Source: Thermosediminibacter litoriperuensis (lineage in GTDB: Bacteria > Bacillota > Thermosediminibacteria > Thermosediminibacterales > Thermosediminibacteraceae). From it: a stretch of DNA of 37,251 nucleotides. Under the pieces are notes generated by a model, which saw only the letters and a list, made by a program, of their open reading frames with translations, did not search any database and was not told the DNA's origin. The DNA is taken from NCBI RefSeq assembly GCF_008124715.1, contig NZ_VNHO01000020.1, positions 1-37,251 of the forward strand, read 5' to 3'. The position numbers were made by a program, and so were the translations under genes. Below, piece after piece: positions 20,741-25,859 of the stretch. Every line of letters begins with the position of its first letter. Within the stretch, counting starts at the first letter, position 1.

Positions 20741-20769
20741 TTGACAGCGAAAAAATATTTTAATATAAT
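20741..20769 (+). promoter_or_regulatory. Consensus sigma-A promoter of the selenoprotein gene
   Basis: TTGACA (20741-20746), a 17-bp spacer and TATAAT (20764-20769) match the consensus completely. The start codon is 26 bp downstream. Confidence 0.9.
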
Positions 20770-20794
20770 AAAATCAGCAGTGGAGGTGAATGTT

Positions 20795-21079
20795 ATGATT
20801 CAAATAGAAATAGATGAGAAGGCAAAGAATTTTATTCGGGAGAAAAACAGCGACGCCATAACCGTCAAACTTGAGCGCTACGGCGGCGGATGAGCGGGCT
20901 GCAGGTACATGCCTGCCGTGTATGTAGGCGCTCCGGCGGACAAGAACGAGTACCAGGTTCAGGAAGTCGACGGAATAAAAGTATATATAAGCCCCTTTGT
21001 CGATACGCAAAAGGGCCTCAGGATTTACCTTTCCGGTTTCGGGATGTTCAAGAACCTGGCTGTGGCTTCACCGTATTAA
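20795..21079 (+). CDS. HesB-like Sec/Cys-motif selenoprotein with in-frame UGA
   Basis: ATG 20795 follows GGAGGTGA. The frame runs 32 codons to a UGA at 20891-20893 and continues without interruption for 61 more codons to TAA at 21077. Reading the UGA as selenocysteine gives a 94-residue protein with GGGUAGCRY, that is Sec33-x-x-Cys36. The downstream frame (YMPAVYVG, then GIKVYISP and LSGFGMF) continues the same fold and matches small HesB/IscA-like proteins annotated as CC/Se-motif (seleno)proteins; this match is from memory. A hairpin starts 7 nt after the UGA. A perfect promoter and good ribosome site argue against a pseudogene. The biochemical role is unknown; a redox or metal-sulfur function is inferred. 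Standard gene calling would stop at residue 32 or miss the gene. Confidence 0.8.
20895..20918 (+). promoter_or_regulatory. Putative bacterial SECIS hairpin
   Basis: Just after the UGA, GCAGG (20901-20905) pairs with CCTGC (20912-20916) around TACATG. CG at 20895-20896 can pair with CG at 20917-20918 below an asymmetric bulge. G residues at the apical base and the short distance to the UGA fit loose bacterial SECIS models recognised by SelB. Confidence 0.55.
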
Positions 21080-21849
21080 TCGGCACTGCGGTGTTCCTTG
21101 TAAAGCTGTATAAACTTCATGATAAAGCTAAACTCTTGCGGGGTGCAGTCTGCCACCATCTCCAGGAAGGACCTCACTTTAGGGTCTGCAAAAAGCCGCT
21201 TCAGTTCCGGGTTCATGGGTCTTAAAAGCGATGTTATTTCGTCGTCATCGCCGACGAAATAACAGGGCGAGAGCGAAAGGGCCCGGGCGATTTTTTCCAG
21301 GGTTTTTATCGAAGGTTCAACCCTGCCGCTTTCTATCTGGCCTATGAGGCCGGTGGAAACTCCCGCCTTCCTTGCCAGCTCCGCCTGGGTGAGGCCGCGC
21401 TCCTGGCGAATCTTCTTTATCTTATAGCCCACGTGGGAAGTGGCTGCCATGAGGTCCTGGGCGTTCATACCCAGGGCCCCGGCTATGGCCTTGAGGGTCG
21501 ACAGCGACGGCAGGGCGTTGCCCTTTTCGATCTGGCACAGGTACGTCGCCGAAATGCCCGCCTTCCCGGCCAGTTCCGAGAGCGAAATCCCCTTCTCCTG
21601 GCGAAGGAGGGCTATCCTGTCGCCTATAGACCTGCTGCTGCGGTTTTCGGTGGGCTCCGGCTCAAAGAGCGCGTTTTTCGATATATTCAGGGCGGTGGCC
21701 AACTTTTCGATGGCCTCCAGGGAGGGCTGTTTTTTCCCCCGCTCTATCTCGCTCAGGTAGGAGACCGAGAGCTCCGCCCGCCGGGCCAGTTCCTGGAGGG
21801 ACATATTCCTTTTTCGCCGGAAGTTCCGGATGAGTTTCCCGTCGATCAT
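21076..21849 (-). CDS. XRE-family regulator with three tandem HTH domains
   Basis: The 257-residue protein contains three Cro/CI-type HTH domains of about 53 residues each, near 4-58, 74-128 and 141-195. Each follows the pattern IRxxRxxxxxSxxELAxxAxxSxxYLxxIExG...PSLxxLxxIAxAL. The C-terminal 60 residues are acidic and resemble no ligand domain I know. Most XRE regulators have one HTH. Three in one chain imply extended or multi-site DNA binding, or internal duplication. ATG 21849 has AAGGGAG 8 nt upstream on the minus strand. Its stop overlaps that of the selenoprotein gene by 3 nt in antiparallel orientation. Targets are unknown; a palindrome on its own promoter suggests autoregulation. Confidence 0.85.
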   Translation of the reverse strand: MIDGKLIRNFRRKRNMSLQELARRAELSVSYLSEIERGKKQPSLEAIEKLATALNISKNALFEPEPTENRSSRSIGDRIALLRQEKGISLSELAGKAGISATYLCQIEKGNALPSLSTLKAIAGALGMNAQDLMAATSHVGYKIKKIRQERGLTQAELARKAGVSTGLIGQIESGRVEPSIKTLEKIARALSLSPCYFVGDDDEITSLLRPMNPELKRLFADPKVRSFLEMVADCTPQEFSFIMKFIQLYKEHRSAD

Positions 21850-22001: not shown

Positions 22002-22316
22002 ATGAAACCCCTTACTCTGACCGACGATAATTTTGAACAGGAAGTCCTAAAATCCGACGTGCCGGTGCTCGTGGACTTCTGGGCGCCCTGGTGCGGCCCC
22101 TGCCGCATGATGGCACCCGTAATCGATGAGCTGGCAACCGAATACGAGGGCAAGATCAAAGTAGGAAAACTGAATGTGGACGAAAATCCGAACAGCGCGG
22201 GAGCCTACGGCGTCATGAGCATTCCGACGCTCATACTCTTTAAAGACGGCCAGCCGGCCAAGAAGATGATCGGCTTCAGGCCGAAAAAGGAAATAATCGC
22301 CGAACTCGGCATATAA
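22002..22316 (+). CDS. trxA: Thioredoxin
   Basis: This is a cytosolic dithiol-disulfide reductant, kept reduced by thioredoxin reductase (not in the window). The 104-residue product has the active site [11 protein letters not shown] with Cys31 and Cys34, the buried Asp region, and the cis-Pro segment [12 protein letters not shown]. The start follows AAAGGAGG. It is divergent from the triple-HTH regulator and has its own terminator. Its closeness to the Sec-x-x-Cys protein is suggestive of a redox link but proves nothing. Confidence 0.96.
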
Positions 22317-22394: not shown

Positions 22395-22412
22395 AAGTAT
22401 TGGAGATTCAGT

Positions 22413-22427
22413 TGCAAATAATTTGCA
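22413..22427 (+). promoter_or_regulatory. Zur-type operator TGCAAAT-A-ATTTGCA
   Basis: A perfect 7-1-7 palindrome lies 19 bp after the minus-10 of the znu promoter, where bound repressor would block transcription. The 7-1-7 layout is that of Fur-family boxes (Fur, Zur, PerR), and a Fur-family gene ends the same operon. I infer zinc-dependent repression by that protein. Confidence 0.7.
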
Positions 22428-22453
22428 TTTATAATTTTCAGGAGGTGCCTTTT

Positions 22454-23416
22454 TTGAAGAGTAAAAGGGTTACCGCAGCCTTTTTGCTGGTGATGGTGAC
22501 AGTCTTTGTACTTTCAGCCTGTTCTTCCAGGACCTATACCCCGGCGGCGCCCCAGGTGCGGGGGAAAATCAGGGTCTATACCACCGTTTACCCCCTTTAC
22601 GACTTCGCTTCGAAGATCGCCGGAGACAGGGCCGAGGTGGTGAACGTAACCCCGGCCGGGGTGGAAGCCCACGACTTTGAGCCCTCTCCCAGGACGGTAG
22701 CGGATATTTACGAAGCGGACGTATTCGTATATCTCGGAGGGCCTATGGACCCCTGGGCTGAAAAACTTGCAAAACAGCTGGCCGGGAAGGGTGTTGCAGT
22801 TGCGGCCGCCGAAGGGGTTCTCGGTGACGAAGGCCGGGAAAAGGCCGAAAATCATGAAAATGACGAGGCCCGGGACCAGGATCATGACCATAGCTTGGAT
22901 CCCCACGTCTGGCTCGATCCAATTGTTTCAAAAATACTCGCCGAAAGGATAGCAGAAGCTCTGATTGCCGCCGACGGGAAAAACGTCGCCTATTACAGGC
23001 AAAACCTCGAGGTGCTGAAAAACCGACTTGACGATCTGGATAAAAAATACCGGGAGGCTCTTTCGGGTGTGAAAAGGCGCGATTTCGTGGTGAACCACGA
23101 CGCCTTCGGGTACCTGGCCCGGCGATATGAGCTCAATCAAATCGCCATCAGCGGGCTTTCACCCCAGCAAGAGCCTTCTTTTAAAAAACTTGCCGAACTT
23201 GCCCGGATCTGCCGGGAAAAGGATATAAAGTATATTTTTCTTGAGACCGCCGCCGGTTCTAAATTGGCCGAAACCCTGGCCCGGGAGGTCGGAGCCGGGA
23301 TTCTGGTCCTAAACCCCATCGAGAGCTTGACGGAAGACGAAATGAAAGCCGGCGAAGACTACTTTTCCGTCATGGAAAAGAACCTGGAAAACCTGAAAAA
23401 AGCCCTGGCGGAATAG
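22454..23416 (+). CDS. znuA: Zinc ABC transporter substrate-binding lipoprotein
   Basis: This cluster A-I solute-binding protein captures Zn2+ outside the membrane. It starts with a lipoprotein signal (basic KSKR, a hydrophobic core, lipobox LSAC, about residues 1-22). Metal ligands fit the family: His73 (EAHDFEP), His151 (DPHVWLDP), His215 (VNHDAFGY) and an acidic residue in the C-terminal lobe. A His/Asp-rich loop (about 135-150; HENDEARDQDHDH) is typical of zinc rather than manganese proteins. TTG 22454 follows CAGGAGGTG; the frame open from 22400 would put the operator inside the gene. It is the first gene of znuA-znuC-znuB-zur. Confidence 0.92.
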   Translation: MKSKRVTAAFLLVMVTVFVLSACSSRTYTPAAPQVRGKIRVYTTVYPLYDFASKIAGDRAEVVNVTPAGVEAHDFEPSPRTVADIYEADVFVYLGGPMDPWAEKLAKQLAGKGVAVAAAEGVLGDEGREKAENHENDEARDQDHDHSLDPHVWLDPIVSKILAERIAEALIAADGKNVAYYRQNLEVLKNRLDDLDKKYREALSGVKRRDFVVNHDAFGYLARRYELNQIAISGLSPQQEPSFKKLAELARICREKDIKYIFLETAAGSKLAETLAREVGAGILVLNPIESLTEDEMKAGEDYFSVMEKNLENLKKALAE

Positions 23417-23432
23417 AGGGCAGGTGTAGAAA

Positions 23433-24191
23433 GTGAAAGAGGAAAAAAAGTTTGAGATTCCAGTGGTGGAGCTGCAGGAGGTTACCTTTTCCTATAACGG
23501 CCCGCCGGTGCTGGAAGGGGTGAGCTTCAGGGTGGACAGGGGCGATTTTATGGCCCTCATAGGCCCCAACGGTGCCGCCAAGTCCACCCTTATGAAGATC
23601 ATGCTGGGACTCCTGACTCCTGACAGAGGTGCGGTAAGGCTTTTCGGCGAGGATGTCCGGAATTTCAGGCAGTGGCATAGAGTCGGCTACGTGCCCCAGC
23701 AGGGAGGGCAGGTTAACATCGCCTTTCCCGCTACAGTGACGGAAACGGTGGCGTCGGGGCTTTACGGCGGGTATATGAAGTTTTTAAAGGGGCAAGAGAG
23801 GGATAAGGCTGTAAGGGAGGCCATGGCAACAGTCGGCATCGAGCACCTGGCCCGCAGGCTCATCGGGGAGCTTTCCGGGGGACAGAGACAGAAGGTGTTC
23901 CTGGCCAGAAGCCTCGTAAAAAAACCCGAAGCCCTTTTTCTGGATGAACCCACCGCTGGAATAGACCCGGAATCCCAGGAGGAATTTTACAGCCTCCTGG
24001 AGAATCTGAATAAACATCACGGCCTGACGGTGGTCATGATAACCCACGATATAGGTATGGCCTACGGCAGAGCCACCAAGATTGGGTGTGTGGGCTGCAG
24101 GAAGGTTGGCGTGCACGAAAACATAAAGGATATTACCGAAGACCATATAGCCGAAGTGATGGGCTACAGGATAAAAAGGAAGCGCCGCTAA
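23433..24191 (+). CDS. znuC: Zinc ABC transporter ATP-binding protein
   Basis: This cytoplasmic ATPase powers zinc import. The 252-residue product shows Walker A (GPNGAAKST, about 44-52), the signature LSGGQRQKVFLARSL, Walker B LFLDEPTAGID and the switch region MITHDIG. The Walker A has Ala in place of the last Gly. I recall the same change in AdcC zinc ATPases of streptococci, so it is probably a family trait and not damage. The C-terminus has GCVGCRKVGVHEN, with Cys residues that could bind metal. GTG 23433 follows GGGCAGGTG and lies 17 nt after znuA. Confidence 0.92.
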   Translation: MKEEKKFEIPVVELQEVTFSYNGPPVLEGVSFRVDRGDFMALIGPNGAAKSTLMKIMLGLLTPDRGAVRLFGEDVRNFRQWHRVGYVPQQGGQVNIAFPATVTETVASGLYGGYMKFLKGQERDKAVREAMATVGIEHLARRLIGELSGGQRQKVFLARSLVKKPEALFLDEPTAGIDPESQEEFYSLLENLNKHHGLTVVMITHDIGMAYGRATKIGCVGCRKVGVHENIKDITEDHIAEVMGYRIKRKRR

Positions 24192-24216
24192 ACCGGCGTC
24201 AGGGGAGAAGGTATAT

Positions 24217-25029
24217 ATGGAGATATTTGCGTATTCCTTCATGGTCAGGGCGTTTATCGCGGGGGTGGCCGCCGCCGTCCTGACCTCCACCATCGGGGTG
24301 TTCGTGGTGCTCAGGCGCATGTCGATTGTGGGCGACAGCCTGTCTCACGCCTCCCTGGCCGGAGTAGCCGCCGGTATGCTCTTCGGGTTCTACCCCTTTT
24401 ACGGCGCCCTGCTGTTCTCCGTCCTGGCCGCACTGCTCATCGAGGTCATGAGGGCCGCCTTTAAAAGATACGCCGAAGTCGCCATAGCGGTGGTGATGTC
24501 GGCGGGCATGGGCACTGCGGTGGTGTTGATAAGCCTCGGCAAATCCTTCAATGCGGACCTCTTCTCGTACCTCTTCGGCAGCCTGATGGCGGTTACGCCG
24601 GGAGATATAAAGGTTATATCAACGCTGGGACTTTTCGTGATAGCTTCCATCATCCTCCTCCGACGGGAGCTCTTTGCCGTCACCTTCGACGAAGATACGG
24701 CCCGCCTTTCGGGCATACCGGTGAAGGCCGTAAACGCCTACTTTTCGGTAATTACGGCACTGACGGTGGCCCTGTCGGTGAGGGTGGTGGGTACCCTGCT
24801 GGTATCGGCTCTCATAGTCATACCCGCCGCCGTGAGCCTCCAGCTGGCAAGGAGCTTCAGGTCGGCCTTTTTCATATCGAATGCGGTGGCGATTTTCTCG
24901 GTGGTTGCCGGGCTCTACATTTCCTTTTACCTGGACCTGGCGCCCGGAGGCACCATCGTCCTCATCGCTTCTTCGGTGCTATTTATGGTTCTTTTGCTTA
25001 AAAAGGGGGTCAGGAAGGGATGGAACTAG
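24217..25029 (+). CDS. znuB: Zinc ABC transporter permease
   Basis: The membrane channel of the zinc importer is a 270-residue protein of the ABC-3 family with about eight hydrophobic segments. The conserved GDSLSHASLAGVAAG loop (about 34-48) contacts the ATPase, and RVVGTLLVSALIVIPAAVS is the typical C-terminal membrane motif. ATG 24217 follows GGGGAGAAGG. Its last 10 nt overlap zur, which ties permease and repressor translation. Confidence 0.93.
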   Translation: MEIFAYSFMVRAFIAGVAAAVLTSTIGVFVVLRRMSIVGDSLSHASLAGVAAGMLFGFYPFYGALLFSVLAALLIEVMRAAFKRYAEVAIAVVMSAGMGTAVVLISLGKSFNADLFSYLFGSLMAVTPGDIKVISTLGLFVIASIILLRRELFAVTFDEDTARLSGIPVKAVNAYFSVITALTVALSVRVVGTLLVSALIVIPAAVSLQLARSFRSAFFISNAVAIFSVVAGLYISFYLDLAPGGTIVLIASSVLFMVLLLKKGVRKGWN

Positions 25030-25445
25030 AGAATCTGCTGAAACAGAGGGGCCTGAAGGTTACGGACCAGAGAAAGGCCATAGTGAAGGTGCTTAAAGAC
25101 TGCAACTGTATGCTCAGCGCCAGGGACATATTCGATAAAGTGAAGCAGATAATTCCCGGCGTAAACTTTTCCACCATATACAGGAACCTGGACCTGATGA
25201 GCCGCAAGGGCATCCTGTGCGGCTTGATGGTCGATACCGGGGTGTCGCTATACGGGTTGCACCGGGAGGAAGGTCATCACCACCACCTCGTATGTAAAGG
25301 GTGCGGCAGGTCGATGGCTATAGATTACTGCCCGATGAGTTCGGTAGAAAAGGAGCTTGCCAAAAAGGGTTTTTCCCCCACGGAGCACGAATTTATAGTC
25401 TATGGTTTCTGCGGCAGCTGCGGAACTTCCGGCAGGGGGGAATGA
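25020..25445 (+). CDS. zur: Fur-family zinc uptake repressor
   Basis: The 141-residue product has the N-terminal winged HTH (about 5-80; LKVTDQRKAIVKVLKDC and NFSTIYRNLDLM) and a C-terminal metal/dimer domain. The regulatory-metal motif is HREEGHHHHLVCKGCGR with Cys92 and Cys95, and the second structural pair is Cys131 and Cys134. Position at the end of a zinc transport operon makes Zur the best assignment over Fur or PerR. With the operator at 22413 this forms an autoregulatory loop. The start overlaps znuB by 10 nt. Confidence 0.88.
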   Translation: MELENLLKQRGLKVTDQRKAIVKVLKDCNCMLSARDIFDKVKQIIPGVNFSTIYRNLDLMSRKGILCGLMVDTGVSLYGLHREEGHHHHLVCKGCGRSMAIDYCPMSSVEKELAKKGFSPTEHEFIVYGFCGSCGTSGRGE

Positions 25446-25506: not shown

Positions 25507-25740
25507 TATTAATAAAAAGTATAGCAGGGTTAAATTCGATGACGGGGAAGAGTAGCCGTACCGGAAGGTCAAAGAGAGCCGCCGGCGGTGGGAGCGCGGT
25601 ACCGGAAGGTTCGGTGAATGGGCCCCGGAGAAGGCGCGGCGAAAGACATATCAAGTAGCCGTGCCCGGAAGGTCCTCCGTTAATAAAAGGACGGGGTATC
25701 GCATTTTATGCCGTACCCTTATGAGAGAGCCTCTGTATAC

Positions 25741-25787
25741 CGGGTGGCGAAAAAGCATTTCATCCCTTGGGGTGAAATGCTTTTTTT
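25741..25787 (+). terminator. First terminator in the T-box leader with degenerate T-box sequence
   Basis: AAAAGCATTTCA (25751-25762) and TGAAATGCTTTT (25773-25784) form a long stem extended by CCC/GGG pairs and followed by seven T. It is preceded by CGGGTGGCG (25741-25749), which equals a T-box sequence with ACCGC removed. Confidence 0.75.
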
Positions 25788-25823
25788 ATCACCTGTGCAG
25801 GCTAATTCGGGTGGCACCGCGGA

Positions 25824-25859
25824 GAGCATCCGTCCCGCATGGACGGATGCTCTTTTTTT
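25824..25859 (+). terminator. Second (main) T-box terminator
   Basis: GAGCATCCGTCC (25824-25835) and GGACGGATGCTC (25841-25852) form a perfect 12-bp stem followed by seven T. Its 5' arm competes with the T-box sequence for pairing. Confidence 0.9.

Follow-up and report, generated by a model that had tools for sequence, protein, structure and literature searches.

Described relatives and family membership

In a 2026 review, the NCBIfam family NF041239 (CC/Se motif family (seleno)protein) is listed as a predicted selenoprotein of Moorella thermoacetica that has a single Sec and the motif CxxU (PMC13188914, Table 1), and UxGP is given as the motif of the HesB-like selenoproteins of TIGR01911 (PMC13188914). 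The window, which is the whole stretch of 37,251 nucleotides of DNA of the anaerobic bacterium Thermosediminibacter litoriperuensis that was analysed, holds a gene (Table 1) whose product scores 97.7 bits against NF041239, where the cut-off is 40, and all 70 aligned relatives (70/70) match the same profile. The family is present in 90 of 398 genomes from the phylum, mostly with one TGA, and the window gene is an additional member of this catalogued, functionally uncharacterised selenoprotein family, not a new kind of system.

Profile score, length, a central Sec, a SECIS and the existence of Cys forms are all common to the window gene and NF041239, whereas the motif differs from the CxxU listed for the family (PMC13188914), being UxxC in the taxonomic order of the window's host, with Cys at +3 and not at -3 relative to Sec. 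Amongst the members, the near Cys lies at +1 in 23, at -3 in 23, at +3 in 15 (the class of the window's group) and at -1 in three, and is missing from all of these positions in 21; in a relic copy in genome G009, positions -3 and +3 are both Cys. Sec is thus the constant element of the alignment, whereas the Cys that partners it shifts its place (UxxC, UC, CxxU, CU) or is lacking. As the partner Cys is variable among members that pass the profile, CxxU does not define NF041239.

An AlphaFold2 model built with the 70 aligned relatives reached a mean pLDDT of 92.8, and the top Foldseek matches of this predicted structure were SufA, IscA, AQ_1857 and DsrR, with a probability of 1.00 and TM of 0.5-0.6 to SufA/IscA (SufA E 1.8e-5), so that the modelled protein is of the HesB/IscA-type beta fold. 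A profile search of the sequences of solved structures gave no match, and only the comparison of folds gave any. By hhalign (96.5%), Sec33 falls on the Sec/Cys of HesB-like, TIGR01911-like proteins, and the profile alignment also puts it on the first ligand Cys of the A-type carriers. The fold type and the equivalent place of Sec are shared with TIGR01911, but the window protein scores 14.5 bits against that family (cut-off 66.35) and has U-A-G-C in place of UxGP, and no TIGR01911 member above the cut-off was found in the 61 genomes searched, the window's own included. The preliminary description had called the gene HesB-like, a label that is fit for the fold and not for membership of TIGR01911.

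IscA-type carriers hold their cluster with three Cys ligands, one central and two in a Cys-x-Cys at the C terminus. The window protein resembles the A-type carriers IscA, SufA and ErpA (PF01521, TIGR00049) in fold and in having Sec33 where their first ligand Cys stands, but the C-terminal Cys-x-Cys is missing, U33 and C36 being the only candidates for the three-Cys set and C36 the only Cys of the protein. Its scores are below the IscA, SufA, ErpA and PF01521 cut-offs (16.4 bits for PF01521, gathering score 26.3).

Table 1. Features in the window and related genes elsewhere in the same genome (positions are those of the window unless a contig or locus is given).
Feature	Position	Strand	Remarks
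ORF of 144 residues	20249-20683	+	Sigma_reg_C domain only
Predicted sigma-70 type promoter, TTGACA-17-TATAAT	20741-20769	+	-35 at 20741-20746, -10 at 20764-20769, spacer 17 nt; 12/12 match, by consensus only
Ribosome binding site GGAGG	20782-20786	+	By sequence; ATG 8 nt downstream
CC/Se motif family selenoprotein gene	20795-21079	+	ATG at 20795, TAA at 21077-21079; 94 residues, Sec33, UxxC motif (U33-A-G-C36)
UGA codon almost certainly read as selenocysteine, codon 33	20891-20893	+	Sole stop within the frame; UGA also at this codon in nearly all relatives
Predicted bacterial-type SECIS hairpin	20911-20929	+	Stem 20911-20916 / 20924-20929, loop 20917-20923; comparative evidence
Triple helix-turn-helix regulator gene, convergent	21076-21849	-	HTH families; neighbour in 23 loci, kept in the order
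Thioredoxin gene	22002-22316	+	TIGR01068, 134 bits; conserved neighbour of the single-Sec form
Zinc/manganese-type ABC transporter genes (22400-25029), then Fur-family regulator gene	22400-25445	+	Named from sequence
T-box leader	25530-25840	+	112.4 bits
selC (tRNA-Sec)	C5:19375-19465		Above curated cut-off
selB	C5:19611-21482		Above curated cut-off
selA	C5:21503-22876		Above curated cut-off
selD	C2:103087-104010		Above curated cut-off; own in-frame TGA
Second family member, tandem UGA-UGA	C7:3321-3602 (L078:2825-3109)	+ (L078)	Outside the window

Evidence for selenocysteine decoding at codon 33

From the sequence of the window, the preliminary description had proposed that the UGA is read as selenocysteine in a frame that is otherwise open to its TAA, behind a perfect consensus promoter with 17-bp spacing and a good ribosome site, and that the product carries GGG-Sec-AGC, a Sec-x-x-Cys motif. 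Each of these signals was recovered, and translation gives a product with a sole in-frame TGA (MIQIEIDEKAKNFIREKNSDAITVKLERYGGGUAGCRYMPAVYVGAPADKNEYQVQEVDGIKVYISPFVDTQKGLRIYLSGFGMFKNLAVASPY), in which the local sequence around Sec33 is YGGGUAGCRYMPAV. The four genes for selenocysteine synthesis and decoding, whose presence in the host was one of the checks called for, were all found, and three of them, selA, selB and selC, are clustered at C5:19375-22876. Nearly all homologues have Sec at position 33, which aligns with Cys in most of the Cys forms.

The gene also follows the decoding machinery across the order. It is intact in 14 of the 22 genomes searched, with selB and selC above cut-off in 14/14, and the other eight have no intact gene and selB and selC above cut-off in 0/8, these counts coming from related genomes in which events are not independent. 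One of the eight, G009, retains a relic broken by several frameshifts (L090, G009:C31), next to the same regulator and thioredoxin genes as the intact copies, and has no selB or tRNA-Sec. Both the co-occurrence and this relic are as expected if the gene depends on Sec decoding. Weak matches to tRNA-Sec and SelB in the Sec-free genomes, all below curated cut-offs, were set aside as cross-hits to other tRNAs and EF-Tu-like GTPases.

The hairpin that had been described directly after the UGA does exist, but its conserved stem begins around 18 nt further downstream. It was compared across 68 distinct relatives with a U-x6-P[ATVS]V pattern, in which the stem lies at a fixed distance from the UGA and the apical-loop G (20918 in the window, 24 nt after the UGA) is invariant. 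The stem cells are paired in 95% of cases, against a mean of 88% and a maximum of 91% for shuffles and 22-38% for slid partners, and one stem position has GC in 38 relatives, AT/AU in 21 and GU in nine, with no mismatches. Codon choice at the hairpin is frozen when compared with the rest of the same genes, with CCT for Pro in 63/68 (48/214 elsewhere), GCC for Ala in 42/42 (101/257 elsewhere) and GTG for Val in 67/68 (95/456 elsewhere). Thr occurs at a stem position in 21 members, all of which (21/21) have the pairing Val and none Ala. Covariation and frozen wobble sites of this kind indicate selection on RNA structure within the coding sequence, which is what a bacterial SECIS requires. The folding energy of the 45-nt UGA region (20891-20935) is no better than that of shuffles (z = -0.56), the region folding into a different structure, and support for the SECIS therefore rests on comparison; in the 25-nt stretch around the stem, the stem is recovered at z = -1.94.

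Downstream of the UGA, comparison with a same-genus genome gave dS 0.40 and dN 0.036 (dN/dS about 0.09), so that selection there is purifying. That the UGA is instead a true stop in a recent pseudogene, or a sequencing error, has in its favour the in-frame stop itself and nothing more, and is very improbable given this constraint, the covarying hairpin and the recurrence of this UGA in the same-genus genome and dozens of further genomes; the last of these excludes the error that had been named as a way to refute the proposal. The preliminary description had argued that a decaying gene would not keep such features, and the true relic in G009 does look quite different, so that comparison refutes decay here. 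Still less credible is the decoding of the UGA as another residue, by Trp reassignment or near-cognate readthrough, for which no support was found; the residue aligns with Cys in the Cys forms and not with Trp, tRNA-Sec and SelB are present, and the hairpin is SECIS-like. To judge from these comparisons, selenocysteine is almost certainly inserted at codon 33 of the window gene, and there is very little doubt about Sec decoding and membership of NF041239 taken jointly. SelB carrying Sec-tRNA would very likely bind the hairpin and insert Sec at the UGA, and translation would then continue past Sec33 to the TAA. The expectation that automatic annotation would miss the gene is probably out of date, as pipelines that use NCBIfam now have a named (seleno)protein family for it.

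Gene neighbourhood and possible role

Of the 86 single-Sec loci, 28 have a thioredoxin gene within 3 kb, as against none of the 23 Cys loci and none of the 12 double-Sec loci, these being counts in which the flanks are short at some loci. In the distant family f18, thioredoxin follows the single-Sec gene by 14-40 nt. In the window's order, the gene for the convergent triple-HTH regulator lies between the selenoprotein and thioredoxin genes, and these two are therefore not in one operon. The Cys-Cys forms have ArsR nearby in 7/23 loci and ACR3 in 6/23, and ACR3 accompanies 2/86 of the single-Sec loci. Five Cys-Cys forms (L108, L110, L113, L115 and L137) lie among arsenic resistance genes, in clusters that hold ArsR, ACR3, ArsC-like or ArsA-like genes, and the set of arsenic-cluster loci also includes one Sec form (L135). 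These gene links suggest that the single-Sec form would act as a thioredoxin-reduced selenol and the Cys-Cys form in a metalloid role.

Several other features of the region were noted. The zinc/manganese-type ABC transporter genes of the window lie downstream of the thioredoxin gene, and a similar permease gene is found near the distant relative L018. Upstream of the selenoprotein gene, the frame homologous to the 144-residue ORF is longer in a same-genus genome (L003:707-1405), and the 5' part of the ORF may therefore be lost or out of frame. A peptidyl-tRNA hydrolase/L25-like neighbourhood common to three loci was judged to be a chance linkage of housekeeping genes.

Taken as a whole, the best explanation is that of an NF041239 selenoprotein with SECIS-directed Sec33 that may act as a thioredoxin-reduced selenol, and this is considered highly probable. 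In the modelled protein, Sec33 would stand where the A-type Fe-S carriers have their first ligand cysteine, and it may be a reactive selenol that attacks an oxidised substrate, forming a selenenylsulfide with Cys36 (UxxC) that would be re-reduced by the neighbouring thioredoxin. The thioredoxin-coupled role of the window protein, considered on its own, is tentative and falls somewhat short of an even chance, as most loci lack the link, nor can pairing with a near Cys in a selenenylsulfide hold for all members, since 21 single-Sec members have no Cys at -3, -1, +1 or +3.

The alternatives concern the role of the protein and leave its decoding as above. Sec33, together with a nearby Cys in those members that have one, may be a ligand for soft metals or metalloids, and the protein would then be no redox enzyme but a small chaperone that delivers, or a scavenger that removes, As(III), Hg(II), Cu(I) or a comparable ion. 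The Cys-Cys forms in arsenic operons (ArsR in the 7/23 above) do point to metalloid binding, either in place of disulfide chemistry or in addition to it. The fold, being that of a metal/Fe-S carrier, and the common occurrence of vicinal pairs (CU, UC, CC) agree with this, but near the window gene there are zinc-type ABC genes and no recognised metal resistance genes, and single-Sec members keep company with thioredoxin and not with ars genes, which leaves this reading rather unlikely, though the strongest of the alternatives. That the protein carries Fe-S clusters in the manner of IscA/ErpA, with Sec among the ligands, draws on the same fold and on Sec standing at the first cluster Cys, but the lack of the C-terminal pair and the sub-threshold carrier scores make it improbable.

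A paralogue with tandem UGA-UGA, probably Sec-Sec

The same genome encodes a second family member with a tandem in-frame UGA-UGA, and such members also occur in other genomes of class-level relatives and in one farther genome (L079-L089). The G022 double-UGA copy scores 49.2 bits against NF041239 (cut-off 40), and several others are below the cut-off. One SECIS-like hairpin, with a covarying stem, follows the UGA-UGA. The spacing between the first UGA and the start of the loop matches that of the single-Sec form, and it appears that a single hairpin serves both UGA codons of the pair. In at least eight double-Sec loci the gene follows those for ferredoxin and aldehyde ferredoxin oxidoreductase (AFOR), and in most of these it precedes the gene for an Fe_hyd_lg_C (Fe-hydrogenase-type) protein; the copy in the window's own genome lies in a cluster of this make-up. 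The NF041239 entry in the review has one Sec (PMC13188914), and no account of the Sec-Sec form was found in the literature searched, although it may be described elsewhere.

It is about evenly balanced whether the family should be seen as a selenol platform of variable form, its Sec number being tied to the partner gene, with single Sec linked to thioredoxin, Cys-Cys to arsenic efflux and Sec-Sec to the AFOR cluster, the Sec-Sec pair being a diselenide or metal-binding couple that serves AFOR. The window gene is itself of modest value as a secure example of a catalogued family, to which it adds comparative evidence for the SECIS, a distribution in which the gene is kept or decays in step with Sec decoding, a predicted fold, and thioredoxin as a candidate partner. 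The tandem Sec-Sec paralogue, which lies outside the window, is the most novel thing seen, and it is the part for selenium specialists because of the hairpin that its adjacent UGAs appear to share.
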